DNA of 64,000 nucleotides from Actinoplanes xinjiangensis (GTDB lineage Bacteria; Actinomycetota; Actinomycetes; Mycobacteriales; Micromonosporaceae): NCBI RefSeq assembly GCF_003148685.1, contig NZ_QGGR01000001.1, positions 186,001 to 250,000 of the forward strand, in the 5' to 3' direction. Numbering within the stretch: position 1 is the stretch's first letter; each line of letters begins with the position of its first letter. The position numbers and the translations under genes are program-made. The notes beneath the pieces are model-generated. The model was not told where the DNA came from and did no database searches. It worked only from the letters and a program-made list of their open reading frames with translations. Shown in pieces: positions 5,806 to 37,169 of the stretch.

Positions 5806-7029
5806 TCAGCGGATTCCGGCGTCCGCCAGCAGGCGGGTGATCACCCGGGCGGGCAGGGCCGGGTTGGCGGCGGCCGCTTCGGCGGTGGGCGGGTCGTCGA
5901 GCAGTTCGAGCAGGCGGGGCTGTGGGAGCCGGGGATCGGTGGCCATGGCGCGACGGACCGCGGTGGACGGGTCCCGGCTGAGCCGGTCGATCAGTTCCGG
6001 CGGGGCGGCGGGATCCAGCGCCACCAGGGCCCGGGCCTCCGGTGACGGGTCGTCGGCGAGGCGGGCCAGGCCCGTACCCGAAAAGGCCGGATGCCGCAGC
6101 AGGTCCTCGTCGCCGGTGGCGAGGTAGGTGTCCAGCACGAGTTCGCCGGGGACGTGTGCCTGGTGGGAGCAGAGCAGGGCCCGGACCGCGGGATCGGGGT
6201 CGGCGGTGAGGGCGGCGAGCAGGTCGGCGGGCAGGTCCGGGTGGCAGGCGGCGCTGCGCCGCAGGACGGGATGAGCCGACCGTACGCACCGGTCCAGTTC
6301 GGCCGGCCCGGCGGCGAGCACCCAGTCCAGTGCGGGGGTGGCGTCGGCCGGGAGGACCGGGTAGTCGATGGCGGCGCGCTGGGCCTCGGTGAGCTCGGGA
6401 CGGGTGGAGACGGCCAGGCGGACCCGGGGCGACGGATCGGCGGCGAGCGTGGTGATCCACTCGGCGGGCAGGGCCGGGTCGGTGGCGGCGCGTTCCCGGT
6501 TCCAGTCGGAGCCGCCGGAGGCGAACAGCACCGCCTGGTCACGGCCGAGGGAGGCGGGCTGGTACGGCTTGCGGTCCAGCAGGGCGCGGGCGGCGTCGGC
6601 GATGCCGGGATGCCGGTCCCGGGCGAGCAGCGCCACCACGTCGCGGGGTGTGCCGGGCAGGTAGGTGAGCAGGTCACGGACCAGGGGCTCGGGGTGTTCG
6701 GCGAGCCGGCGGTGCACCCGGCCGGGCAGCGGGCCGGCCCAGCGGGTCGGCGGGCCCTCGAGAACGGCCTGCAGGACCCGGATGCTGAGGTCACCGGCGA
6801 GCCGGGCGCGCTGTTCACCGGTGGCGCCGGGGCTCTGGGCGAGCGCCTCCCGTACCTCCGGGTCGGGGTGTGCGGCGAGGGTGTCGAACGCCTCGTCGGT
6901 CCATGCGCGCCGGGCGGTGAGGTCCCACCGGCTGATCCGGTCGTCGCCGGCGAGCCGCACCAGGGCGGCAGCCGGGAGGGCCGGGTTGCGAACCAGGCCG
7001 CGCAGGGGGTTGGACACGATGACGAACAT
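5806..7029 (-). CDS. Helical-repeat protein of the leucine-rich-repeat-variant type
   Basis: 407 residues composed of about fourteen degenerate repeats of roughly 24-26 residues with the pattern NPALPxxLLxxLAxDPxxxVRxAVAxxP (for example NPALPAAALVRLAGDDRISR near the start and DPSTAVRRAMATDPRLPQPR near the end). Such right-handed alpha-solenoids (LRV/HEAT-like) mediate protein contacts. There is no signal peptide, membrane helix or catalytic motif. It is convergent with merR (24 bp apart) and upstream of nothing obvious, so context gives no function. The ATG at 7029 is used; a GTG at 7017 (VSNPLRG) is an alternative. Confidence 0.7.
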   Translation of the reverse strand: MFVIVSNPLRGLVRNPALPAAALVRLAGDDRISRWDLTARRAWTDEAFDTLAAHPDPEVREALAQSPGATGEQRARLAGDLSIRVLQAVLEGPPTRWAGPLPGRVHRRLAEHPEPLVRDLLTYLPGTPRDVVALLARDRHPGIADAARALLDRKPYQPASLGRDQAVLFASGGSDWNRERAATDPALPAEWITTLAADPSPRVRLAVSTRPELTEAQRAAIDYPVLPADATPALDWVLAAGPAELDRCVRSAHPVLRRSAACHPDLPADLLAALTADPDPAVRALLCSHQAHVPGELVLDTYLATGDEDLLRHPAFSGTGLARLADDPSPEARALVALDPAAPPELIDRLSRDPSTAVRRAMATDPRLPQPRLLELLDDPPTAEAAAANPALPARVITRLLADAGIR

Positions 7030-7158: not shown

Positions 7159-8034
7159 TCAGCTCAGCGGGCAGGTGCTGCGGTAGTCCGAGATCGAGCT
7201 GCTGCTCGGCCCCGGGCAGATGAACTGGTCGTAGCGGGTGTCGTTGTCGACGAACCGCTTGAGCCAGGCGACCGCCTGCACCGCGGTCGGGGTGTTGGTG
7301 GACTGCGGGAAGAAGTGGCTGGCGTTGTTCAGTTCCAGGTACGACTTCTCCGCCGAGGCGGGGATGCTGTTGTAGAACGGGATGGAGTGCGAGGAGACCG
7401 ATGCGATGCTGTCGCTCTCGCCACCGATGATCAGCGTCGGGACCCGGAGTTCGGTCCACGACTTGTCGGCGTTCCACGGGGCCAGCGGGACGGCGGCCTG
7501 AAGGGACGGCCGGTCGCTGGCGGCTTCGAGGCTGCCGCCGCCACCCATCGAGTGCCCGGACACCGCGAGCCGGCTCGCGTCGATGCGGGTACGCACCGAG
7601 CTGCGCTGGGTCAGGTAGTCGAGGGCGGCCAGCAGCTGGGAGCCGCGGGAGGCCGGCTGGTCGAGGGTGGTGTTGGTCTCGATGCCGATGACCACGAATC
7701 CGTGTGAGGCGAGCCGCGGCCCGAGCCAGGAGATGCTCGACCAGTAGGCGGTGTACCCGGGCGAGATGGCGATCGCGCCGAAGGTGCCGTCACCGGTGCT
7801 GGTCGGGTAGTAGATCTCACCGCCGCCGAAGCCGGAGACGGACAGGCTGGACACCGAGGTCTGGCTGACCGCGTACGGTCCGCGGGACGCCTGGAGGGCG
7901 GAGAGGGTGGGTGCGGGGCCCCGCTCGTACGGGTTGGCGGCGGCCTGTGCGGCGACGGCGGTGCCGGTGGTGAGGGTGATCGCGGTGGCCGCAACGGCCA
8001 GCCAGCGCAGAGCTCGCTTCGGGACAGATGTCAC
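7159..8034 (-). CDS. Secreted cutinase / polyester hydrolase (PET-hydrolase type)
   Basis: A 291-residue secreted alpha/beta hydrolase closely resembling Thermobifida cutinases and the PETase family, enzymes that cleave cutin and aliphatic or aromatic polyesters outside the cell. The signal peptide ends near [12 protein letters not shown], and the mature start matches the family. Visible catalytic residues are Ser162 ([10 protein letters not shown]), Asp208 (GGESDS) and His240 (NNASHFFP). The oxyanion hole is Tyr94 (SPGYT) and Met163, and the aromatic clamp Trp187 (LAPWN). Cys273 and Cys288 form the expected C-terminal disulfide ([17 protein letters not shown]). His216 is cutinase-like where Ideonella PETase has Ser. 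The GTG start at 8034 has a good AGGAGA six nt upstream; longer in-frame starts add nothing. It is divergent from the LAL regulator. Confidence 0.9.
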
Positions 8035-8206
8035 GTCGACTCTCCTAACCTGGGGGATTGCATCGACGGAGGTCAGTCTTGGCAGTGCGACAACAAGCAC
8101 GCATCGGTGAAATCGCCTGCGTTCTGTCATCGGACGGCAACATCCCGGAAATTTCATTTACCGCAACGCTGTTCCGTTCCGGCCCTGGGCACGGCACACT
8201 CGCCGC

Positions 8207-11047
8207 ATGATTGATGCACCGGCAGTGCAGAAACTTGGGCTGGCCGGACGCGGTGACGCCCTCGCCGACATCGGCCGTCTGACCTCGGCGGCCGCGGCCG
8301 GGCGCGGCGGCGTCCTGGTGATCTCCGCGGGCCCCGGCGAGGGACGGACCGCGCTGCTGCACGCCGTCGCCGAGGCCGCCGACGGCTGGACGGTGCTCAC
8401 CGCCACCGGCTTCGCCGACGAGCGCGATCTGCCGTACGCAAGCCTGCAGACCCTGCTCACACCCCTGCGTGACCGGCTCGCCGACCTGGCCCCGGCGACG
8501 CGCCAAGCGCTGTCGCGCGCCTTCGGCGGCGACCCCGGCGATCCCCTCGCGGCCGGCCTCGCCTCGCTATCCCTCGTCCGTACGGCCACCCGCACCCGCC
8601 CGGTGCTGTGCCTCGTCGACGACGCCCACCTGCTGGACCCGTCCTCGTGGCGGGCCGTCGTGTTCGCCGCCCGCCGGATCGGCACCGAGCGGATCGCGAT
8701 CGTCGCCGCCGTCCCGGCCGGCGCCGAACCGGCCGGCTTCCCGGTGCACCGACTGGGCCCGCTCGGCCCCGCCGCCGCCCGGCAGGTGCTCACCGCACAC
8801 GCCCCCGACCTCGCCGAGGACGTCGCCGGCAGCCTCGCCGAGATCGCCGCCGGGCACCCGGGCGCCCTCATCGACCTGGTCCGCGGCCTGAGCCCGGAGC
8901 AGCGCCGCGGCTACGCTCCCCCGCCGGAGACGCTGCCGCCGGACAGTCCGCTGCGCCGCCGGCTGGCCGCCGAACTGCACGTCCTGCCGCCCCGCACCCG
9001 CGAGTTGCTGCTGCTCGCCGCCGCGGCCCCGGACGCCGCCCCCGACACGCTGCTGACCGCGGCCGCCGCCCTCCGCGAAGCCGACCAGAACGGCGACGCG
9101 GCGAACGGCGGCGACCCGAAAGACGACGCGACGGACGGCGATGAGCCGCAAGCCGACGCGACGAACGGCGGCGACCCGAAAGCCGGCACGGCGAACAATG
9201 GCGACCCGGAGGATCACGCGGGCGGGCTCGCCGACTTCGCGGCAGCCGAGCGGCGGGGGCTGATCACGGTCACGGCCGCGGGAGTCGGTTTCCGCGGGCC
9301 ACTGATGCGCGGGGTCGCGTACGCCGAGATGCCTGTCGCCCGCCGGCGGGCGGCCCACGCCGCGCTCGCCGCGGTGCTGGAGGAACGCGGCGCCCGGCTG
9401 CCCGCGCTGCTGCAACGTGCCGCCGCGACCACCGGCCCGGACGCGGCCCTGGCGCGGGATCTGGCCGGTGCCGCGCGGTCGGCGGATCCGGGGGTCGCCG
9501 CGGAGGCCGCCCGGTACGCCGCCGGCCTGTGCCCGACCCCTGCGGAGAAGGCGGGCCTGTTGCTGGCGGCGGCCCGTTCGGCGTGGCTGGCGGGCCGGCC
9601 GCACCAGGCCGGCCAGCTGATCCGCCGGATTCCCGCGGCCGCCGGCAACGCCCGGGTCCGCGCCCGCGGCCTGACCGCCGAGATGAGCCTGCCGGAGGGC
9701 CGTCCCGGTGCCCGCGATGTGCTCTTGGACGTCGCCGCCGAACTCGCCGAGTCCGACCCGGGTACGGCGCTGGAGGCGCTCGCCCTGGCCGGCGAGTCGG
9801 CGTGCCGTTCCGGGGAGCAGAACCGGTACGCCGCCCTGGCCCGCCGGGTCGCGGCCGGGCAGCGGGGCGACGAGCCGCCCGCGGTGGCGCTGGCGTTCCA
9901 TCACGTCGCCGGGCTGGCGTGCATCGCCGACGGCGACGAGGCGGCGTCGTTCGTCCGGCTGCGGCAGGCGGTCGCGCTGGCCGACCGGGTCGCCGAGCCG
10001 GGACCGCTGCTGCGGGCCGCGACCGCGGGCATCCTGATCGGTGACGCCCGCCGGGCCGCCGCCCTGGCCGGGCGGGCCGCGGTCATGGCCCGGGAGGCGG
10101 GGGCGTCGGTGCTGGTGCCGCAGGCCCTGGAGCTGGCGGCGCTGGCCGGGATGGCGTCCGGCGACTACCCGGCCGCGAACGAGGCCGCGATGGACGGGGC
10201 CGCGGTGGCCCGCGGCACCGGCCAGCAGGTTCTGGCCGGGGCGCATCTGGCCGTGCTGGCGGTACTCGCCGCCCTGGTCGGCGACCGGGACACCGCCCTG
10301 AGCCGGATCGCGTCGGTGCCCGACGGACCGTCCCGGCCGCTGTGCGAGTGGGCGCTGGCACTGCTCGACATGGTCGACGGCCGTTGTCAGGTCGCCGCCG
10401 AGCGTCTGCTGGCCGTGGTGGCGGCACCGCCCGGCCCGGGTTCGGCGCTGCTGCGGGTGGCCGTGGTGCCGCATCTGCTGGAGACGGCGGCGCAGATCGG
10501 GGCGCGGGAGGCGGTCGAGCCGGTGGCGGTGGCCTTCGACCGGTGGGCGGGGCGGACCGGGCAGCCGGGCTGGCTGGCGTTGCGTGACCGCTGCCGGGCG
10601 CTGCGCGCCGACGACGGCGAGTCCGCGGCGTGGCATTTCGAGACGGCGCTGGGGCGCGAGGGCGAGGCGGGTTTCCCGCGGGCACACACCGAGCTGTTGT
10701 ACGGCCGATCACTGCGCCGCCGCCGCCGCAACGTGGCGGCCCGCACCCACCTGCGCCGGGCCGCCGAGACGTTCCAGCTGCTGGACGCCGCCCCGTGGGC
10801 GGAGCAGAGCGTACGGGAGCTGCGCGCCGCCGGGGAACGCGTGGAGACGCCACCTCCGGCGGGGCCGGCGCTCACCGCCCAGCAGGAGCGCATCGCGTCC
10901 CTGGTCGCCGGCGGTGCAACCAATCGGGAGGTGGCGCAGGAGCTGCACCTGAGCCCGCGGACCGTCGACCACCATCTGCGTAACGTCTTCGCCCGCCTGG
11001 GAGTGCGGTCGCGCACCGAGATGGCCCGGCTACTGACCGCCCGTTAG
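8207..11047 (+). CDS. LAL-type LuxR-family regulator with AAA ATPase domain
   Basis: A 946-residue large ATP-binding LuxR regulator. The N-terminal part has a P-loop-like sequence (AGPGEGRTALL, residues 41-51) in which the Walker A Lys is replaced by Arg47, and a Walker B LCLVDDAHLLD (about 138-148). The middle is a helical TPR-like region. The C-terminus is a LuxR winged helix (LTAQQERIASLVAGG, then NREVAQELHLSPRTVDHHL). Between ATPase and TPR parts (about residues 290-340) a hydrophilic Asp/Gly/Asn-rich linker contains near-repeats of NGGDPK-type units. The ATG has no Shine-Dalgarno; a CACACT box 6 nt upstream suggests a leaderless transcript. It is divergent from the cutinase gene, which is a possible target (inference). 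Confidence 0.88.
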   Translation: MIDAPAVQKLGLAGRGDALADIGRLTSAAAAGRGGVLVISAGPGEGRTALLHAVAEAADGWTVLTATGFADERDLPYASLQTLLTPLRDRLADLAPATRQALSRAFGGDPGDPLAAGLASLSLVRTATRTRPVLCLVDDAHLLDPSSWRAVVFAARRIGTERIAIVAAVPAGAEPAGFPVHRLGPLGPAAARQVLTAHAPDLAEDVAGSLAEIAAGHPGALIDLVRGLSPEQRRGYAPPPETLPPDSPLRRRLAAELHVLPPRTRELLLLAAAAPDAAPDTLLTAAAALREADQNGDAANGGDPKDDATDGDEPQADATNGGDPKAGTANNGDPEDHAGGLADFAAAERRGLITVTAAGVGFRGPLMRGVAYAEMPVARRRAAHAALAAVLEERGARLPALLQRAAATTGPDAALARDLAGAARSADPGVAAEAARYAAGLCPTPAEKAGLLLAAARSAWLAGRPHQAGQLIRRIPAAAGNARVRARGLTAEMSLPEGRPGARDVLLDVAAELAESDPGTALEALALAGESACRSGEQNRYAALARRVAAGQRGDEPPAVALAFHHVAGLACIADGDEAASFVRLRQAVALADRVAEPGPLLRAATAGILIGDARRAAALAGRAAVMAREAGASVLVPQALELAALAGMASGDYPAANEAAMDGAAVARGTGQQVLAGAHLAVLAVLAALVGDRDTALSRIASVPDGPSRPLCEWALALLDMVDGRCQVAAERLLAVVAAPPGPGSALLRVAVVPHLLETAAQIGAREAVEPVAVAFDRWAGRTGQPGWLALRDRCRALRADDGESAAWHFETALGREGEAGFPRAHTELLYGRSLRRRRRNVAARTHLRRAAETFQLLDAAPWAEQSVRELRAAGERVETPPPAGPALTAQQERIASLVAGGATNREVAQELHLSPRTVDHHLRNVFARLGVRSRTEMARLLTAR

Positions 11048-30502: not shown

Positions 30503-32745
30503 TCGCGCAGGTGCCGGGCGGTCAGGGTGTCGGACTTGGCGACGAGTTCGGCGGGGGTGCCGGTGAAGACGACGGTGCCGCCGTCGTGGCCGGCGCCCGG
30601 CCCCAGGTCGATGATCCAGTCGGCGTGGGCCATGACGGCCAGGTGGTGTTCGATGACGATGACCGTGTTGCCGCTGTCGACGAGGCGGTCGAGGAGGGCG
30701 AGCAGTTGGTCGACGTCGGCCAGGTGCAGGCCGCTGGTCGGCTCGTCGAGCAGGTAGGTGGCGACGCCGCTGCCCATGTGGACGGCGAGTTTGAGTCGCT
30801 GCCGTTCGCCGCCGGACAGGGTGTTGAGCGGCTGGCCGAGGGTGATGTAGCCGAGCCCGACGGCGTTGAGGCGTTCCAGGATCGCGCGGGCCGGCTTCTC
30901 GGTGAAGAAGTCGAGGGCCTCGCTGACCGGCATGGCCAGGACCTCGCTGATGTCGCGGCCGCGGAGTTTGTACTCCAGCACCCGGGCGATGAAGCGTTTG
31001 CCCTCGCACTCCTCGCAGACCCCGGCGACGCCGGCCATCATCGCCAGGTCGACGTAGACCAGGCCGATGCCTTTGCAGTTCGGGCAGGCGCCTTCGGAGT
31101 TGGCACTGAACAGGGCGGCCTTGACGCCGTTGGCCTTGGCGAAGGCGGTACGGACGGCGTCGAGCAGGCCGGTGTAGGTGGCCGGGTTGCTGCGCCGGGA
31201 GCCGCGGATGGCGGACTGGTCGACGACGATGACGCCGTCACGCTGCGGCAGTGATCCGTAGATCAGGGAGCTCTTGCCGGATCCCGCAACGCCGGTGACG
31301 ACGGTCAGCACACCGGTGGGGACGTCGACCGAGACGTTCTTGAGATTGTGGGTAGCCGCGTCTCGAATGGGTATTTGTCCGGTATGTGGCCTTGTCGAGG
31401 CTTTGAGTTCGACGCGATGCCCGAGGTAGCGCCCGGTCAGGGTGTCCGAGGCACGCAGGGCGGGCACGTCGCCCTCGAACTGGATGCGGCCGCCGGCCGG
31501 ACCGGCACCGGGGCCGATGTCGACCACGTGGTCGGCGATCGCGATCGTCTCCGGCTTGTGCTCGACCACCAGGACCGTGTTGCCCTTGTCCCGCAGGCGC
31601 AGCAGCAGCCCGTTCATCCGCTGGATGTCGTGCGGGTGCAGGCCCACCGTCGGCTCGTCGAACACATACGTGATGTCGGTCAGGCTCGAGCCGAGGTGCC
31701 GGACCATCTTGACCCGCTGCGCCTCCCCACCGGACAACGTGGCCGACTCCCGGTCCAGCGACAGATATCCCAGCCCGATCTCCACCAGCGAGTCCAGGGT
31801 CTGCCGCAGGTTCGCCACGACCGGGCCCACCGACGGCGCCGTGACCCCGGCCAGGAACTCCGCCAGGTCACTGACCTGCATGGCCGAGCACTCGGCGATG
31901 TTCCGGCCGTCGATGCGCGAGTCCAGGACCGACGGCTTCAACCGGCTGCCCCCGCAGTCCGGGCACGCCGCGAACGTGGCCGCCCGGTCGATGAACGCCC
32001 GGATGTGGGGCTGCACCGACTCCCGTTCCTTCGTCAGGTACATCCGCTGCACCTTGACCACGAGGCCCTCGTACGTCGTGTTGATGCCGTTGACCTTGAT
32101 CTTGATCGACGGTTTGTAGAGGAAGTCGTCGAGCTCGGCCGCGGTGAACTCACGCACCGGTTTGTCCGGGTCGAACAGCCCCGACTCGGCGAACCCGCGC
32201 ACATACCAGCCGTCGACACTGAAGTTCGGGACCGTGATCGCACCCTCGTTGATCGACTTCGACCGGTCGACGAGCTGGTCCAGGTCGAGGCTGGAGACCT
32301 TGCCCAGACCCTCGCAGCCCGGGCACATGCCCTCGGCGTTGAACGAGTAGGCGAGCGCACTGCCGGCGCTCGGCGACCCCAGCCGGCTGAAGACGATCCG
32401 GAGCATCGTGTACGCGTCGGTGGCCGTCCCCAGAGTGGAGCGGGCATTGGCACCCATCCGCTCCTGATCGACGACGATCGCCGCGCTCAGATTGTGCAGG
32501 GCGTCCACGTCGGGCCGGGCCGGACTGCCCATGAACGACTGCAGGAACGCCGAATACGTCTCGTTGATCATCCGCTGCGACTCGGCGGCGATGGTACCGA
32601 ACACCAGCGACGACTTGCCGGAACCGGAGACACCGGTGAAGACGGTCAGCCGCCGTTTCGGGATGTCCAGCGAGACGTCGCGAAGATTGTTCTCCCGGGC
32701 CCCGCGGACCTGGATGACACCGTGGCTGTCTGCGATGTGAGTCAC
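30436..32745 (-). CDS. Short UvrA paralogue (UvrA2 type)
   Basis: 769 residues, against about 950 for UvrA, a double ABC ATPase of the drug-associated UvrA2 type (DrrC-like). Walker A motifs: GVSGSGKSSLVFG (about residues 38-50) and GVAGSGKSSLIYG. Signatures: LSGGEAQRVKM and LSGGERQRLKL. Zinc-finger Cys clusters are CPGCEGLG, CPDCGGSRL, CPNCKGIG and CEECEGK. These proteins lack the UvrB-interacting insertion and are linked to resistance to DNA-intercalating or DNA-binding drugs in producers; that is inference here. GTG 32745 is preceded by TACTGT 6 nt upstream (leaderless). The C-terminal 20 residues lie inside the convergent hydrolase gene. Confidence 0.92.
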   Translation of the reverse strand: MTHIADSHGVIQVRGARENNLRDVSLDIPKRRLTVFTGVSGSGKSSLVFGTIAAESQRMINETYSAFLQSFMGSPARPDVDALHNLSAAIVVDQERMGANARSTLGTATDAYTMLRIVFSRLGSPSAGSALAYSFNAEGMCPGCEGLGKVSSLDLDQLVDRSKSINEGAITVPNFSVDGWYVRGFAESGLFDPDKPVREFTAAELDDFLYKPSIKIKVNGINTTYEGLVVKVQRMYLTKERESVQPHIRAFIDRAATFAACPDCGGSRLKPSVLDSRIDGRNIAECSAMQVSDLAEFLAGVTAPSVGPVVANLRQTLDSLVEIGLGYLSLDRESATLSGGEAQRVKMVRHLGSSLTDITYVFDEPTVGLHPHDIQRMNGLLLRLRDKGNTVLVVEHKPETIAIADHVVDIGPGAGPAGGRIQFEGDVPALRASDTLTGRYLGHRVELKASTRPHTGQIPIRDAATHNLKNVSVDVPTGVLTVVTGVAGSGKSSLIYGSLPQRDGVIVVDQSAIRGSRRSNPATYTGLLDAVRTAFAKANGVKAALFSANSEGACPNCKGIGLVYVDLAMMAGVAGVCEECEGKRFIARVLEYKLRGRDISEVLAMPVSEALDFFTEKPARAILERLNAVGLGYITLGQPLNTLSGGERQRLKLAVHMGSGVATYLLDEPTSGLHLADVDQLLALLDRLVDSGNTVIVIEHHLAVMAHADWIIDLGPGAGHDGGTVVFTGTPAELVAKSDTLTARHLRDYISWERNASAVVANSGESMMS

Positions 32746-32784
32746 GCAGCGACAGTAGCCAGCAATGCGGCCAGAAACCGTCCG

Positions 32785-33333
32785 CTATCCCGCGCGACGC
32801 CGGGCCCGGCGGGCCGCCAGCTCATCGTTGCCATCCGGGACGGCAACGGCACCGACCGGCTGCGGGCCGGTGGCGGGCTCCGCCGGCAGGTGCGACAGCG
32901 AACCCTGGATCTCCTTGAACGCCCCGCCGATCGCGATGCCGAACACACCCTGGCCGCCCTGCAACAGGTCCACGACCTCCTCCGGCGACCGGCACTCATA
33001 CACCGTCGTCCCGTCCGAGATCAGCGTGATCTCGGCCAGATCGTCCACCCCGCGCGACCGCAGCGTCTCGATCGCCCGCCTGATGTTCTGCAACGACACC
33101 CCGGCATCCAGCAGGCGCTTGACCACCTTGAGAACGACCAGGTCACGGAACGAGTAGAGCCGCTGGGTGCCGGAACCGGACGCGTCCCGCACGCTCGGGA
33201 TCACCAGCGTGGTCCGCGCCCAGTAATCGAGCTGCCGATAGCTGATCCCGACCGCCTGACAGGCGGTGACACCGCGATAACCGACCTCGCCGTCCTCGCC
33301 GACGAGTGGGCCTTCAAGAGGTTGCTCGTGCAC
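32785..33333 (-). CDS. MerR-like regulator (Rv1830-type)
   Basis: 182 residues, matching the third gene of the garA-ftsR-nuclease-merR block (Rv1827-Rv1830 order). The N-terminal winged helix is YRGVTACQAVGISYRQLDYW, followed by RDLVVLKVVKRLLDAGVSLQ and NIRRAIETLRSRGVDDLAEI. In Mycobacterium the homologue is an essential or growth-related regulator. The C-terminal 60 residues are basic and disordered. The GTG start is preceded by GGGGGAGG with 7-nt spacing. Confidence 0.88.
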   Translation of the reverse strand: MHEQPLEGPLVGEDGEVGYRGVTACQAVGISYRQLDYWARTTLVIPSVRDASGSGTQRLYSFRDLVVLKVVKRLLDAGVSLQNIRRAIETLRSRGVDDLAEITLISDGTTVYECRSPEEVVDLLQGGQGVFGIAIGGAFKEIQGSLSHLPAEPATGPQPVGAVAVPDGNDELAARRARRRAG

Positions 33334-33477
33334 GCGACTACCTCCCCCGCGCCCATGATCAAAATCTAGGCGGTGTGCCGGTTCACCTGGACTTCACGAG
33401 CGTATATCTCAATCACGGCCGAAACATGGAGGTAACCGCTCGACACGCCGCGCACGGACGAACGGCGCCGGTCGATG

Positions 33478-33942
33478 TCAGCCCGCGAAATCCTCCGGCC
33501 GCACCTGGTCGAGGAACTCGCGGAACTTCTCCACCTCGTCCTCCTGCTCGTCAGGGATCACGATCCCCGCCTCGGTGAGAACCTGGTCGGCACACCGGAT
33601 CGGCGCACCCACCCGCAACGCCAGCGCGATCGAGTCACTCGGCCGCGCCGACACCCGCAGATTGTCACCGATCAGCAGATCGGCGTAGAAGACGTTGTCC
33701 TTCAGCTCGGTGATCTCGACCGCCTTCAGCGGCGCCTTCAGCGCCGCCAGGATGTCGCGCAGGAGATCATGCGTCAGCGGCCGTGCCGGCTTGACGCCCT
33801 GCTGCTCATAGGCGATCGCGGTGGCCTCGACCGCACCGATCCAGATCGGGAGATAACGGTCGCCGTCGACCTCCCGCAGCAACACGATCGGCTGGTTGCT
33901 GGGCAGCTCCACCCGGACCCCGACCACGCTCAGCTCACGCAC
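33478..33942 (-). CDS. Bifunctional-nuclease-domain protein (DUF151)
   Basis: 154 residues of the DUF151 bifunctional nuclease family, the Rv1829-type member of this syntenic block. The features are VRELSVVGVRVELPSNQPIV, GDRYLPIWIGAVEATAIAYE and ISDSIALALRV-like SARPSDSIALALRVGAPI. Plant and archaeal relatives show nuclease activity; the role in actinobacteria is unproven. The start is GTG 33942 because GGAGG precedes it by 5 nt; upstream codons in the same frame show no family similarity. Confidence 0.88.
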   Translation of the reverse strand: MRELSVVGVRVELPSNQPIVLLREVDGDRYLPIWIGAVEATAIAYEQQGVKPARPLTHDLLRDILAALKAPLKAVEITELKDNVFYADLLIGDNLRVSARPSDSIALALRVGAPIRCADQVLTEAGIVIPDEQEDEVEKFREFLDQVRPEDFAG

Positions 33943-34040
33943 CGCCGCCTCCGTGTCGTTATCGTCTCGGCTGCAGCGCAGCCGCCCTAACCTGCACGGT
34001 ACACGCACACCACGGGCACCTGATCCGCACGGCGGCGGGT

Positions 34041-34781
34041 TCAGCGACCCAACTCACCCCGTAGGCCCGAACGGACCAGCGCCGCGTGCAGCCGCTGCGA
34101 AAGCGCCTGCAGCTCACGTGCGGTCTCCACGGCACGCGCCCGCGCCGCCGGGTCCTGCTGACGGGCCAACGGCGCCAGCAACTGTGTGAACAGGCCCACC
34201 TCACGGTCCGCGCCGTTGCGGAAGGCACGCAGGTGACGAACCTCCAGCCCATACTGGGCCAGACCCACCACAGCCTCCACAATGATCACCTGATCGGCGT
34301 CATACCACCCCGGCGGACGCGCCGTCACCAGCCCGATCTGCTCCAGCTCGGCCAGCAGCGCCTCATCGACACCGGTCCGCTCCAGCAGATCCGCCTTCGG
34401 CACCCGGGTGTCCGCCGGATCCCGGGCCTGCTGCGCACCCACCGCCACCAGCGTGGGCCGCTGCGGAACCACCGGCTCCTTCTCCATCCGGTCCAACTGC
34501 TCCCGGATCACCCGCAAGGGAAGATACTGGTCGCGCTGAGCGGTCAGCACGAACCGCAACCGGGCCACGTCGTTCCACGAATACTTCCGGTACCCGGAGG
34601 CGGTGCGTTGCGGGTCGACCAGACCCTCCGCCTCCAGGAACCGCAACTTCGAGATCGTGGTGTCGGGGAACTCGGTGCGCAGATGGGCCAGCACCTCCCC
34701 GATGCTCATCAGCGCACCCTCACGCCCGTCCTGAGGGCGCGAAGCCCCCGGATCACGCGCTGCCGCCCCCGACTCCGTCAC
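34041..34781 (-). CDS. ftsR: MerR-family regulator FtsR
   Basis: 246 residues. A MerR winged helix (SIGEVLAHLRTEFPDTTISK, then LRFLEAEGLVDPQRTASGYR) lies at about residues 25-70, followed by a long C-terminal region. By order (after garA, before the nuclease) it is the Rv1828/FtsR orthologue, which in Corynebacterium activates ftsZ. The first 25 residues are Gly/Ala-rich and disordered. The GTG start overlaps the garA stop by 4 bp (GTGA), so the two are translationally coupled. Confidence 0.88.
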   Translation of the reverse strand: MTESGAAARDPGASRPQDGREGALMSIGEVLAHLRTEFPDTTISKLRFLEAEGLVDPQRTASGYRKYSWNDVARLRFVLTAQRDQYLPLRVIREQLDRMEKEPVVPQRPTLVAVGAQQARDPADTRVPKADLLERTGVDEALLAELEQIGLVTARPPGWYDADQVIIVEAVVGLAQYGLEVRHLRAFRNGADREVGLFTQLLAPLARQQDPAARARAVETARELQALSQRLHAALVRSGLRGELGR

Positions 34782-35227
34782 GCCCGGCCCTCGCCCTCCG
34801 GCCGCGGACCGGCGATGAACACCAGACGGAACTTGCCGATCTGGACCTCGTCGCCATTGCTGAGCGTCGCGGCTTCAACCCTTTCGCGGTTCACATACGT
34901 ACCGTTGAGGGAGCCGACGTCGCGAACGGTGAAGATGCCACCGTCGCGGTGGAACTCGGCGTGGCGGCGCGACACGGTCACGTCGTCGAGGAAGATGTCA
35001 CTGTCCGGGTGACGGCCACTGGTCGTCACGTCGTGATCGAGGAGGAAGCGGGCGCCGGCGTTGGGCCCACGGCGCACCACCAGCAGAGCCATCCCCGGGG
35101 GGAGCGAGCCGGCCACACGGCTCGGAACCACGTCCGTCTCGGGTCCCTCCAGCACCTCGTCAAGGGCGCCAAGGTTCAGCGTGGACGTGACGTCGAGCGG
35201 GGGGAACTCGTCGTCTGGGCGCGTCAT
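34778..35227 (-). CDS. garA: FHA-domain regulator GarA/OdhI
   Basis: 149 residues. The FHA domain (about residues 50-135) has the phosphothreonine-binding residues in SGRHPDSDIFLDD, TVSRRHAEFH and GSLNGTYVNRE. The N-terminal tail has TSTLNLGAL, taking the place of the ETTSVF motif phosphorylated by Ser/Thr kinases in GarA; here the diagnostic motif is PPLDVTSTLNLG with candidate Thr residues 14 and 16. GarA controls 2-oxoglutarate dehydrogenase and glutamate metabolism by binding in its unphosphorylated form. It starts at ATG behind GAGGTGG. Translationally coupled to ftsR. Confidence 0.9.
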   Translation of the reverse strand: MTRPDDEFPPLDVTSTLNLGALDEVLEGPETDVVPSRVAGSLPPGMALLVVRRGPNAGARFLLDHDVTTSGRHPDSDIFLDDVTVSRRHAEFHRDGGIFTVRDVGSLNGTYVNRERVEAATLSNGDEVQIGKFRLVFIAGPRPEGEGRA

Positions 35228-35359
35228 CGGACCACCTCACGGATCAGTTGGTCGTCGCCTCCCGGCGAGGCCAGCGACGTTGCGGCCCCGCCAGGGCCAT
35301 ATCGGCCCGACGCACGACTATCGGTTTCAAAGGAATAACAGTTCTTCGTGTGCTCCGCG

Positions 35360-35389
35360 AGCCTAGTCAGCGCCAATATCGCTGGGCAA
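35360..35389 (-). promoter_or_regulatory. Putative sigma-70-type promoter of garA-ftsR
   Basis: Minus strand: TTGCCC (35389-35384), 18-bp spacer, TAGGCT (35365-35360), about 130 bp upstream of the garA ATG. It gives a long untranslated leader in the otherwise gene-free 35228-35438. Confidence 0.4.
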
Positions 35390-35438
35390 CCGGACTCGCG
35401 GAAGAAACGAATGGACGGGCATGAAAATGCCCGCGGCG

Positions 35439-35819
35439 TCAGCTTTCGGTGAGCGCCCGGTACGCCGCGGCGTCCAGCAGCGCGGCCACCGACGCCGGAT
35501 CATCCGGCGCGATCTCCACCAGCCAGCCCGCCGCATACGGCTCGCCGTTGATGATTTCCGGCTCATCGGTCAGCGTCGCGTTCTTCGACACCACCGTGCC
35601 GGAAATCGGCGCGTAGATCTCCGAGACGCTCTTGGTCGACTCGATCTCACCGAGCGAGTCGCCCGCCTGCACCACCGTGCCCTCGTCGGGCAACTGCACA
35701 TACACGATGTCACCCAGCGCGTCCTGCGCGAAATGGGTGATGCCCACCCGCACGGGCCCACTGCCGTCACCGGCGATCCACTCGTGCTCCGCGGTATACC
35801 GCAGATCCTCAGGAATCAA
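35439..35819 (-). CDS. gcvH: Glycine cleavage system H protein
   Basis: 126 residues. Lipoyl-carrier protein of the glycine cleavage system, which shuttles the aminomethyl group between the P, T and L proteins. The lipoylation site is Lys63 in GEIESTKSVSEIYAPISG. The start is a TTG (35819) with an excellent GGAGG five nt upstream, which decides the start. The other gcv genes are not adjacent. It lies between the DUF881 gene (15 bp) and garA, as in Mycobacterium. Confidence 0.95.
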   Translation of the reverse strand: MIPEDLRYTAEHEWIAGDGSGPVRVGITHFAQDALGDIVYVQLPDEGTVVQAGDSLGEIESTKSVSEIYAPISGTVVSKNATLTDEPEIINGEPYAAGWLVEIAPDDPASVAALLDAAAYRALTES

Positions 35820-35834
35820 CGCTTCCTCCGTTAA

Positions 35835-37169
35835 TCACGACACCGGACGCGCGTATCGCAGGGCTGCTGCCTTACGCACCGTGGTCACTTCGACCAGGGA
35901 ACGCGAGTCCATGGTCACGCTACCGCCGTCACTCTTCGCCTGCGCCACCACCCCGCCCGGGATCTGCAGCGCCGTACTCATCGTGCTCGCCGGACCGATC
36001 ACCAGCAGATGGAACGGACCGGTCAGCTCCTCACCGTCGGCGATGATGCCACCACCCGACGCGTCCACGAAGAAACTCGACGCGACCAGCCGTACCGCCG
36101 CCCCGTTCGCCCCGTTGAGCTGCATCACCTCACCGCCGGCGCCCCGCAGCTCCTGCACCGTGTTCAGCACGTCCGACGCCCGCACGTCGCTCAGCGTGAT
36201 GTCCAGACCCGGACCACGACCCGGCACCGTCCCGGCCAGCAGCCCCAGATCCTGACTGCGCCGCTCGGCCTCCGCCAGAGCCGCCTCACGGCCTCCCACC
36301 TCGGAGTTCAACTGCTGTTTACTCTGCTCCAGCGCCTGGATCTGAGCCAGCAGACGACTGTCCTCCGACTCCAGATCACTCAGGATCCGGACCAGGTCCT
36401 CCTGCCGCGTCGCCGCCAGCCCGTCATCCGCGTCGTTGCTGCGCAACTGCACCACCAGCGTGAACCCGAGCAACGCCAGCAGCACCCAGATCAACGTCCC
36501 GGCCGGCGCCGGCCGCCGGAGCCGCGGGCGACCAGGATCACTTTCCGTGGGCGCCGTCGCCGCCCCGGAAATCGACGGATCGGGTGACGTGTCCGACGTC
36601 TCCCCCGCCTCACCCGTCCGGGGCGCGCCGGCCGGCTCCCGACCACCGAGATCAAGATCACCAGGGGGTACGGCCGGAGCACCGGCCCGCCCGTGCTCCT
36701 CCCCGGGGCCGCCGGACAGCACACGATAAGCACCCGAACCGAACATCTCCGGCACTTCGGCTCGCTGCCCGGTCACAGCTTCCCCGTCAGCGCGAACCCC
36801 GGCCGCCACTTCCCGACCACCGTCGTTGCGGGTCGCTTCGGCCGCACTCAACCCGGCCCCGTCGATCCCGGCCAGCGGCGTCCTGGCCGAAGGCGTCCCG
36901 GTGGAAGACGTCCCGGCCAGCGGCGTCCCGGTGGAAGGCGTCCCGGTGGAAGACGCCCCGGCCGCGTCCGTCCCGGGGGCGTCCGGGCCCGGCGCGGACA
37001 GGTCGCGGCCCGCCAGGGAGACGGTCGGCTCGTCGCCGTCGATCGAGGCGTCCAGCAGGGGGACCGCGGCGAACGGAACGGTCGGCTCCTCACCGGCACG
37101 CGGTGGAACGACGGAGGCCGTACCCCCGTCGTCGTCATGCGGCCGCGCCACGCGGTCAGGATCGGTCAT
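35835..37169 (-). CDS. DUF881 membrane protein with N-terminal tandem pentapeptides
   Basis: 444 residues. A long disordered N-terminal region is cytoplasmic; a single membrane helix (TLIWVLLALLGFTLVVQLRS, about residues 240-260) follows; then a coiled-coil (LEQSKQQLNSEVGGREAALA) and a C-terminal DUF881 domain (VRASDVLNTVQELRGAGGEV). DUF881 proteins flank sbp in this conserved block and are thought to work near the cell-division or envelope machinery, but their function is not known. The disordered part includes tandem pentapeptides of the type TPSTG/TPLAG/TSSTG (residues about 70-105), encoded by 15-bp DNA repeats (about 36865-36965). Confidence 0.85.
   Translation of the reverse strand: MTDPDRVARPHDDDGGTASVVPPRAGEEPTVPFAAVPLLDASIDGDEPTVSLAGRDLSAPGPDAPGTDAAGASSTGTPSTGTPLAGTSSTGTPSARTPLAGIDGAGLSAAEATRNDGGREVAAGVRADGEAVTGQRAEVPEMFGSGAYRVLSGGPGEEHGRAGAPAVPPGDLDLGGREPAGAPRTGEAGETSDTSPDPSISGAATAPTESDPGRPRLRRPAPAGTLIWVLLALLGFTLVVQLRSNDADDGLAATRQEDLVRILSDLESEDSRLLAQIQALEQSKQQLNSEVGGREAALAEAERRSQDLGLLAGTVPGRGPGLDITLSDVRASDVLNTVQELRGAGGEVMQLNGANGAAVRLVASSFFVDASGGGIIADGEELTGPFHLLVIGPASTMSTALQIPGGVVAQAKSDGGSVTMDSRSLVEVTTVRKAAALRYARPVS

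Follow-up and report, generated by a model that had tools for sequence, protein, structure and literature searches.

A PET-hydrolase-family esterase of Actinoplanes xinjiangensis, with a conserved promoter box and a divergent LAL regulator gene as its candidate switch

A 64,000-nucleotide stretch of the Actinoplanes xinjiangensis genome (the window) carries a gene for an esterase of the LipA/PET-hydrolase family, and we consider it quite probable that the enzyme is secreted and that its gene is switched by a divergently transcribed LAL (large ATP-binding LuxR-type) regulator acting via a promoter box. The enzyme alone would be one more candidate in a heavily sampled family; the regulatory side matters more. 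As far as we are aware, little has been established about what actinomycete PET hydrolases act on in nature or what induces them. A conserved promoter box together with a candidate regulator provides a direct handle on the natural signal. The features of the locus are as follows.

7159–8034, minus strand: type I PET-hydrolase-like alpha/beta hydrolase of 291 aa, beginning with GTG at 8034 and ending in TGA
7942–8034, minus strand: signal-peptide-like leader, residues 1–31, judged by eye, no predictor
8041–8046, minus strand: ribosome-binding site AGGAGA, its AGGAG conserved in the alignment
8075–8080, minus strand: -10-like element AAGACT, its ACTG-type core starting 24 nt past the box
8102–8117, minus strand: near-palindromic box GGCGATTTCACCGATG (consensus CGGTGATTTCRCCGATG), proposed LAL operator
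8139–8156, minus strand: upstream element TGAAATTTCCGGGATGTT, about 41 nt upstream of the box, clearest in Actinoplanes
8207–11047, plus strand: LAL regulator, 946 aa, AAA_16 and GerE domains, divergent from the hydrolase gene

The original prediction, a polyester (PET-type) hydrolase candidate at 7159–8034, had left the strand unstated; the open reading frame is real, its coordinates are correct and its strand is minus. All 12 aligned Actinoplanes relatives keep AGGAG ahead of GTG, so a 332-aa frame reaching 8157 is unlikely to be the gene. In translation, the leader combines a basic start, a hydrophobic core and AQA/A, after which the protein continues with ANPYERGP, and the solved relatives among the PDB sequence matches begin at the equivalent of ANPY; with such a leader, the hydrolase is probably exported from the cell. 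On the same strand, 3′ of the hydrolase gene, positions 5806–7029 of the window encode an LRV (leucine-rich-repeat-variant) protein, which occupies this place at ten named Actinoplanes loci; we know of no link between LRV proteins and esterases. Elsewhere in the window, the block at 32001–36000 has a G+C fraction of 0.671, compared with 0.688–0.755 in the remaining 4-kb blocks.

A profile search against the cutinase and PETase families, which had been suggested as a check, matched residues 30–289 to positions 1–263 of the Pfam model PF12740 (PETase) with 411.8 bits (E = 1.4e-123), and placement outside the cutinases was not seen. The curated PF12740 cut-off of 28 bits is lenient, as matches in 4 of 14 control genomes (e.g. 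E. coli) pass it or come near, but the window hydrolase exceeds it by a wide margin. No match of the window hydrolase to PF01083, the true cutinases, was found at E ≤ 0.001. Against the NCBIfam equivalog NF051441, “bis(hydroxyethyl) terephthalate hydrolase”, the protein reached 493.5 bits where the cut-off is 520, and it is therefore not entitled to that name. Among PDB entries, 186 distinct sequences matched at E ≤ 0.001 (best E = 1.7e-129), headed by Thermomonospora curvata 7yko (434 bits), ancestral PETases, the Streptomyces exfoliatus lipase 1jfr and PET40. Identity over the mature part is 70.9% to 8eu1, 68.8% to 1jfr, 68.3% to PET40 and 54.7% to the Piscinibacter PETase, and the nearest named relative, from Actinoplanes italicus, is 93% identical across the whole protein. 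An AF2 model built from a 23-sequence input (mean pLDDT 88, pTM 0.89) has 7ykq (TM 0.95), 7yko, 7ykp and then 1jfr as its Foldseek neighbours; as modelled, the hydrolase folds like polyester hydrolases. The enzyme is a new sequence in a well-mined PET-hydrolase family.

We built a protein tree of 57 sequences, comprising the window protein, five PDB references, the Piscinibacter PETase (L101) and 50 selected loci (38 of the 79 named loci and 12 paralogue or relative loci). The window protein falls together with Micromonosporaceae, Streptosporangiaceae and 7yko; forks with support of 97/91 and 100/96 part the protein from Thermobifida, Piscinibacter, PET40 and the Streptomyces LipA-like rows. 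Support is weak at several inner forks, and details of the tree are uncertain because there is only one Thermobifida row and both this row and L101 form long branches. The original assignment to the Thermobifida-type cutinases stands as far as the type I, cutinase-like layout is concerned, but the closest enzymes of solved structure are those of T. curvata (74.3% identity to 7yko, against 62.1% to the Thermobifida cutinase 5zoa), with a supported split from the Thermobifida row. CaPETase was ruled out as the nearest relative, since PMC10382486 assigns it 7YM9/7YME, and 7yko/7ykq belong to T. curvata. A plasmid origin of the gene was also considered: a plasmid-collection search matched six records, five covering at least 80% of the query, with identities of 28–76%. 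The best match is an 11.9-Mb Nonomuraea record and thus probably a chromosome, and these matches lend no support to transfer.

The triad Ser162-Asp208-His240, the oxyanion pair Tyr94/Met163 and Trp187 had been named in advance, and all are numbered exactly in the translation. Trp187 and Tyr94 occupy positions that, in this family, clamp an acyl or aromatic group. The C-terminal disulfide likewise agrees with the translation, where C273 and C288 are the only two cysteines; the bond is deduced from this pair, and the loop between them is of low confidence in the AF2 model. PET hydrolases are divided into types I and II, type I being defined by His and Phe at the S214/I218 positions, a single disulfide pair and no extended loop. 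With H216/F220 rather than S/I, a single pair of cysteines and no loop extension following the catalytic His, the window hydrolase has the classic-cutinase layout that had been claimed for it, not that of Ideonella. PMC4231364 gives S130/D176/H208 as the T. curvata triad and F62/M131 as its oxyanion residues, which map onto S162/D208/H240 and Y94/M163 with a constant offset of 32. The M5-PETase motif, as described in PMC12224614, consists of SMGGGG on the Ser helix, [PG]G[YF], an aromatic clamp, a full triad and DxDxR(Y)xxFxC, and the genera with motif-complete PETases listed there include Actinoplanes. Compared by eye with this description, the window hydrolase carries PGY at 92–94, GHSMGGGG from 160, W187, the full triad and the C-terminal element. 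CaPETase has a phenylalanine, F248, two residues past its catalytic His, according to PMC10382486; the window hydrolase has F242 at the matching position. High PET activity is therefore compatible with a bulky residue at this site.

The rim of the active site had been described as unlike that of the best-known enzymes. It does differ from the Thermobifida cutinase and the Piscinibacter PETase, but it is nearly shared with 7yko and so, judging from the alignment, has a precedent in T. curvata. The T. curvata enzymes Tcur1278 and Tcur0390 (7yko, 7ykp, 7ykq) resemble the window hydrolase in the triad and oxyanion positions and in the PWNxDK and NASHFFPQ rim, and 7yko also in W98 of the first loop. 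They differ in their thermophilic source, in a Phe where the window enzyme has Y94 and, in 7yko, in a Leu where it has A189. We infer that 7yko is Tcur1278, whose Tcur1278-F primer, read in frame, gives DPTESL, as does 7yko. The Thermobifida cutinases (5zoa, and 4cg1 by fold) share H/F at 216/220 and one C-terminal cysteine pair, whereas 5zoa has a PWHLNK and FAPN rim and a longer loop between its cysteines. The Ideonella-type enzyme of Piscinibacter gummiphilus shares the family, the triad and the oxyanion methionine but has GWSMG, with Trp before the Ser, S/I in place of H/F, a Cys at the F242 position and a three-residue insertion after the His.

In the mechanism that we propose, S162, activated by H240 and D208, would attack the ester carbonyls of insoluble lipids and polyesters outside the cell, with the backbone NH groups of Y94 and M163 forming the oxyanion hole. 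The enzyme would cleave acylglycerols and aliphatic polyesters, with amorphous PET as a side activity. PET activity is likely, and the natural substrate is probably acylglycerols or plant polyesters. The T. curvata polyester hydrolases are reported to degrade PCL and PET nanoparticles, and Tcur1278 also to cleave a long-chain polyester. In PMC12455559, PET activity is reported for 115 of 212 tested family members, and DP043, from Actinoplanes sp. DH11 and thus of the same genus as the window enzyme, is among the most performant PET hydrolases of the first round and has a crystal structure. DH11 itself has four strong PF12740 paralogues, the nearest to the window gene (L014/L089) being 89.5% identical over 258 aa; when three of these paralogues were used as PDB queries, no identical chain came up.

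A less probable reading, but one that deserves weight, is that the enzyme is a true triacylglycerol lipase or esterase with LipA function and negligible PET activity, in which case the PETase label would reflect family homology only. The lipase 1jfr, which we take to be the product of lipA, shares fold and family with the window enzyme and is among its closest solved relatives, at the identity given above. The remaining 97 of the 212 screened family members are without PET activity in PMC12455559, and the gene and its neighbouring regulator resemble the lipA–lipR pair as described in PMC12134079. W187, H216 and F220, however, are intact, and the closest solved relatives of all, those of T. curvata, share the rim and, as noted above, degrade both PCL and PET. 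There is no conflict between a lipase role and polyesterase activity on the side.

The complement of related genes bears on a further reading, which we regard as somewhat unlikely: the enzyme would be a dedicated cutin or suberin depolymerase for the colonisation of litter or pollen, and the LAL would sense a polymer-derived signal. The lifestyle of Actinoplanes is linked to the colonisation of litter and pollen. A search of the organism’s own genome (10.8 Mb, 86 contigs) found four further full-length PF12740 members, at 64, 62, 60 and 54% identity, a gene fragment and two PF01083 cutinase-family genes (G000:C25:32419-32955 and C2:460280-460831), which favours this reading and indicates that several possible polyester hydrolases coexist in the genome. 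Related enzymes bearing a CBM13 have been suggested to act on cutin or suberin (PMC12455559), but a domain search found no carbohydrate-binding domain in the window hydrolase.

More widely, 48 of 60 related genomes have a PF12740 match above the cut-off, distant hydrolases included, and the four Actinoplanes genomes that were examined closely have three to five full-length homologues each. The sixth PF12740 match of the own genome (L006, G000:C32:46646-47143) covers only the C-terminal 166 residues, at 47% identity, and looks like a gene fragment. One paralogue lineage (L005 at G000:C13:77757-78599, L096 and L097) keeps Ser-Asp-His and sits on a very long branch; in L005 and L097, the two that were aligned, the Trp clamp is replaced by His or Tyr and the His/Phe pair by Arg/Leu, so this lineage probably has a different substrate. 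In Actinomadura craniellae, a single 8.9-kb locus contains two PF12740-type matches (L055 and L055_1), suggesting a duplication.

The regulatory part of the proposal starts from the gene at 8207–11047. LAL proteins are ATP-dependent sensor-activators, and we propose that this one is a LipR-like activator of the hydrolase gene. The model is the Streptomyces lipA gene, which forms an operon with downstream lipR; according to PMC12134079, LipR, of the LuxR family, activates lipA via conserved sequences upstream of the -35 element. As in that pair, a gene for a LuxR-family regulator, here one with AAA_16 and GerE domains, adjoins the hydrolase gene; a conserved box at the corresponding place upstream of the promoter may be the counterpart of the Streptomyces sequences. 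The locus differs in that the genes are divergent here, whereas the Streptomyces operon lies on one strand with the regulator downstream, and the regulators are only distantly alike in sequence. The S. exfoliatus system is bldA-dependent, in contrast to the present locus, where neither the hydrolase gene nor the LAL gene has a TTA codon, the codon through which bldA dependence acts. A full-text search, mostly without subscription papers, found no published link between a PET hydrolase and a LuxR transcriptional activator, which is weak evidence of novelty.

Among the 79 named loci, which were drawn from the best 80 of 169 matches and are biased to close relatives, 58 have a LAL-like open reading frame scoring above 90 bits near the hydrolase gene: 28 divergent and upstream, 18 downstream on the same strand, 11 in tandem upstream and one unclassified because of an over-long frame. 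For 12 of the 21 loci without a nearby LAL, we searched the whole genome. Six of these genomes (G063, G064, G065, G066, G067 and G071) have a LAL on the hydrolase’s contig, 3.7–9.3 kb from the box; three (G069, G070 and G074) have their best LAL on a separate contig; the best LALs of G068 and G075 have no established tie to the hydrolase gene; and in G076 the search found no LAL at E ≤ 1e-25. Hydrolase and LAL genes can thus be divergent, in tandem, downstream or kilobases apart.

The linked LALs themselves are diverse. In the own genome, the next best match to the window LAL, which is unlinked, scores 102 bits, or 174 bits by blastp. In Asanoa, Planotetraspora, Nonomuraea and Streptosporangium, linked LALs reach blastp scores of 335–405 bits at nine loci and 112–278 bits at three others (L033, L045 and L053), and the adjacent LALs of Streptomyces score 120–228 bits, hardly above the unlinked LAL of the own genome. 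A LAL tree, from which L102, L075, L106 and L103 were left out, unites 33 Micromonosporaceae LALs with a support of 98. We dropped this tree as proof of one regulator lineage, because not all linked LALs are united against the unlinked L104 and L105 and long branches meet.

The sequence upstream of the hydrolase gene is far more constant. Alignment of the window with 12 Actinoplanes relatives revealed two blocks of conservation, TGAAATTTCC..GATGTT and GRYGATTTCRCCGATG, which are spaced by about 41 nt and followed by a conserved ACTG. We defined a strict box, GATTTCNCCGATG with at most one mismatch, and searched 280 nt upstream plus 40 nt of each gene; L016 was left out of the counts because its upstream sequence is shorter than 150 nt. 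For the best 80 of 169 matches, 67 of the 78 upstream regions contain the strict box, namely those of all 12 loci used to define it and of 55 among the other 66; so do 10 of 3746 control tiles cut from these loci. A relaxed pattern, devised after the strict results had been seen, occurs in 69 of 78 upstream regions and in 14 of 3746 control tiles. One or other form is present at 74 of 78 named loci from five families, within the same best 80 of 169 matches; L062, L070, L072 and L084 have neither. Upstream of the paralogues, by comparison, a search of 400 nt found the relaxed box at none of 13 loci, the fragment L006 among them.

When 75 sequences were placed in the register of the box, the information content was 1.0–2.8 bits at all but one of the 20 positions from -6 to +13; the 13 pattern positions were favoured by the search itself, and the others were not. 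Positions +14 to +33 past the box carry at most 0.42 bits. A loosely defined four-base -10-like core follows the box, its first occurrence lying at a distance of 23 or 24 nt in 69 of 75 rows, and at L008 and L042 the core of the box is a perfect inverted repeat, CGGTGA-TT-TCACCG. We propose that the box is the operator of the adjacent LAL. The gene would stay off until the LAL binds the box, just upstream of the -35 element, and recruits RNA polymerase. The second element at 8139–8156 is possibly another copy of the box; lying about four helical turns away in Actinoplanes, it may be a second LAL site or serve the LAL’s own promoter.

Such conservation upstream of a start codon might also be expected of a structured RNA, such as a riboswitch or leader, and for this the stretch is unusually conserved. 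No Rfam family was found at gathering score across 7900–8350, however, and the stretch folds no better than its shuffles (z = -0.59). The box also lies upstream of the -10-like element and so should not be transcribed. We rejected an RNA leader on the Rfam search and the shuffle test, and consider an RNA element in place of a DNA operator very improbable.

A stronger challenge, although one we still think doubtful, is that some other regulator, perhaps a global or carbon-source one, binds the box in place of the adjacent LAL. The box is still present where the LAL lies 3.7–9.3 kb away or was not found, the adjacent LALs vary strongly in sequence where the box does not, and outside PF12740 loci both exact and one-mismatch copies are more numerous than in the reversed control. 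Against this, just one exact copy in the own genome is not within a long open frame, and two genomes with an unlinked LAL have the box in the upstream region of that LAL (exact in one, with one mismatch in the other). The numbers behind these statements are as follows. Exact GATTTCNCCGATG occurs twice in the own genome and not at all in the reversed control, the second copy lying within an open frame of 586 aa, which by eye resembles an AMP-forming ligase. In 61 genomes, GGYGRTTTCRCCGATG has 50 sites, against 4 for the reversed control. By coordinate comparison, 22 of the 50 exact sites lie just upstream of a PF12740 gene, and 28 have no adjoining listed PF12740 gene. In 11 other genomes, allowing one mismatch, there are 5–16 box sites each, compared with 0–3 for the control.

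Pure chance was ruled out for the sites away from hydrolase genes by their number, 28 against 4 in the reversed control; codon bias in coding DNA or further targets may account for them. The promoter signature, which could be checked at 32 of the 50 sites, is present at 14 of 16 hydrolase-linked sites and at 1 of 16 others, which speaks against most of the latter being promoters of this type. A long open frame around a box is not diagnostic, since hydrolase-linked sites also lie within such frames.

We return to the LAL as the proposed activator at this locus. Whether consensus CGGTGATTTCRCCGATG and the LAL together form an old, actinomycete-wide switch with one main target, a single PET-hydrolase lineage, kept through gene rearrangement, is in our judgement an evenly balanced question. 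If the proposed switch is real, the box marks the dedicated inducible member among the PETase homologues, the LAL would report the natural inducer, and the box becomes a sequence rule for choosing the regulated homologue among the three to five per Actinoplanes genome. Should GGTGANNNNRCCGATG match the LipR binding sequences, the box would be a known LipR site.

Three box sites merit separate description. At G004:C50:137630-137793 (L146), counted among the 22 exact sites ahead of a PF12740 gene, the box and promoter signature lie about 30 nt before a remnant of a hydrolase C terminus (43 model positions in a 55-aa frame), as if the gene body had been lost and the promoter kept. In Actinomadura craniellae (L207:4463), an exact box lies between the best LAL and a VWA/solute-binding gene, and in Microtetraspora (L208:4264) a one-mismatch box lies between the best LAL and a Peptidase_S15 (X-Pro dipeptidyl-peptidase-like) gene. 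No PETase was found in the 8-kb stretch around either of these two boxes. Their position upstream of LAL genes ties box and LAL together, but indicates that a LAL of this kind is not always the partner of a hydrolase.
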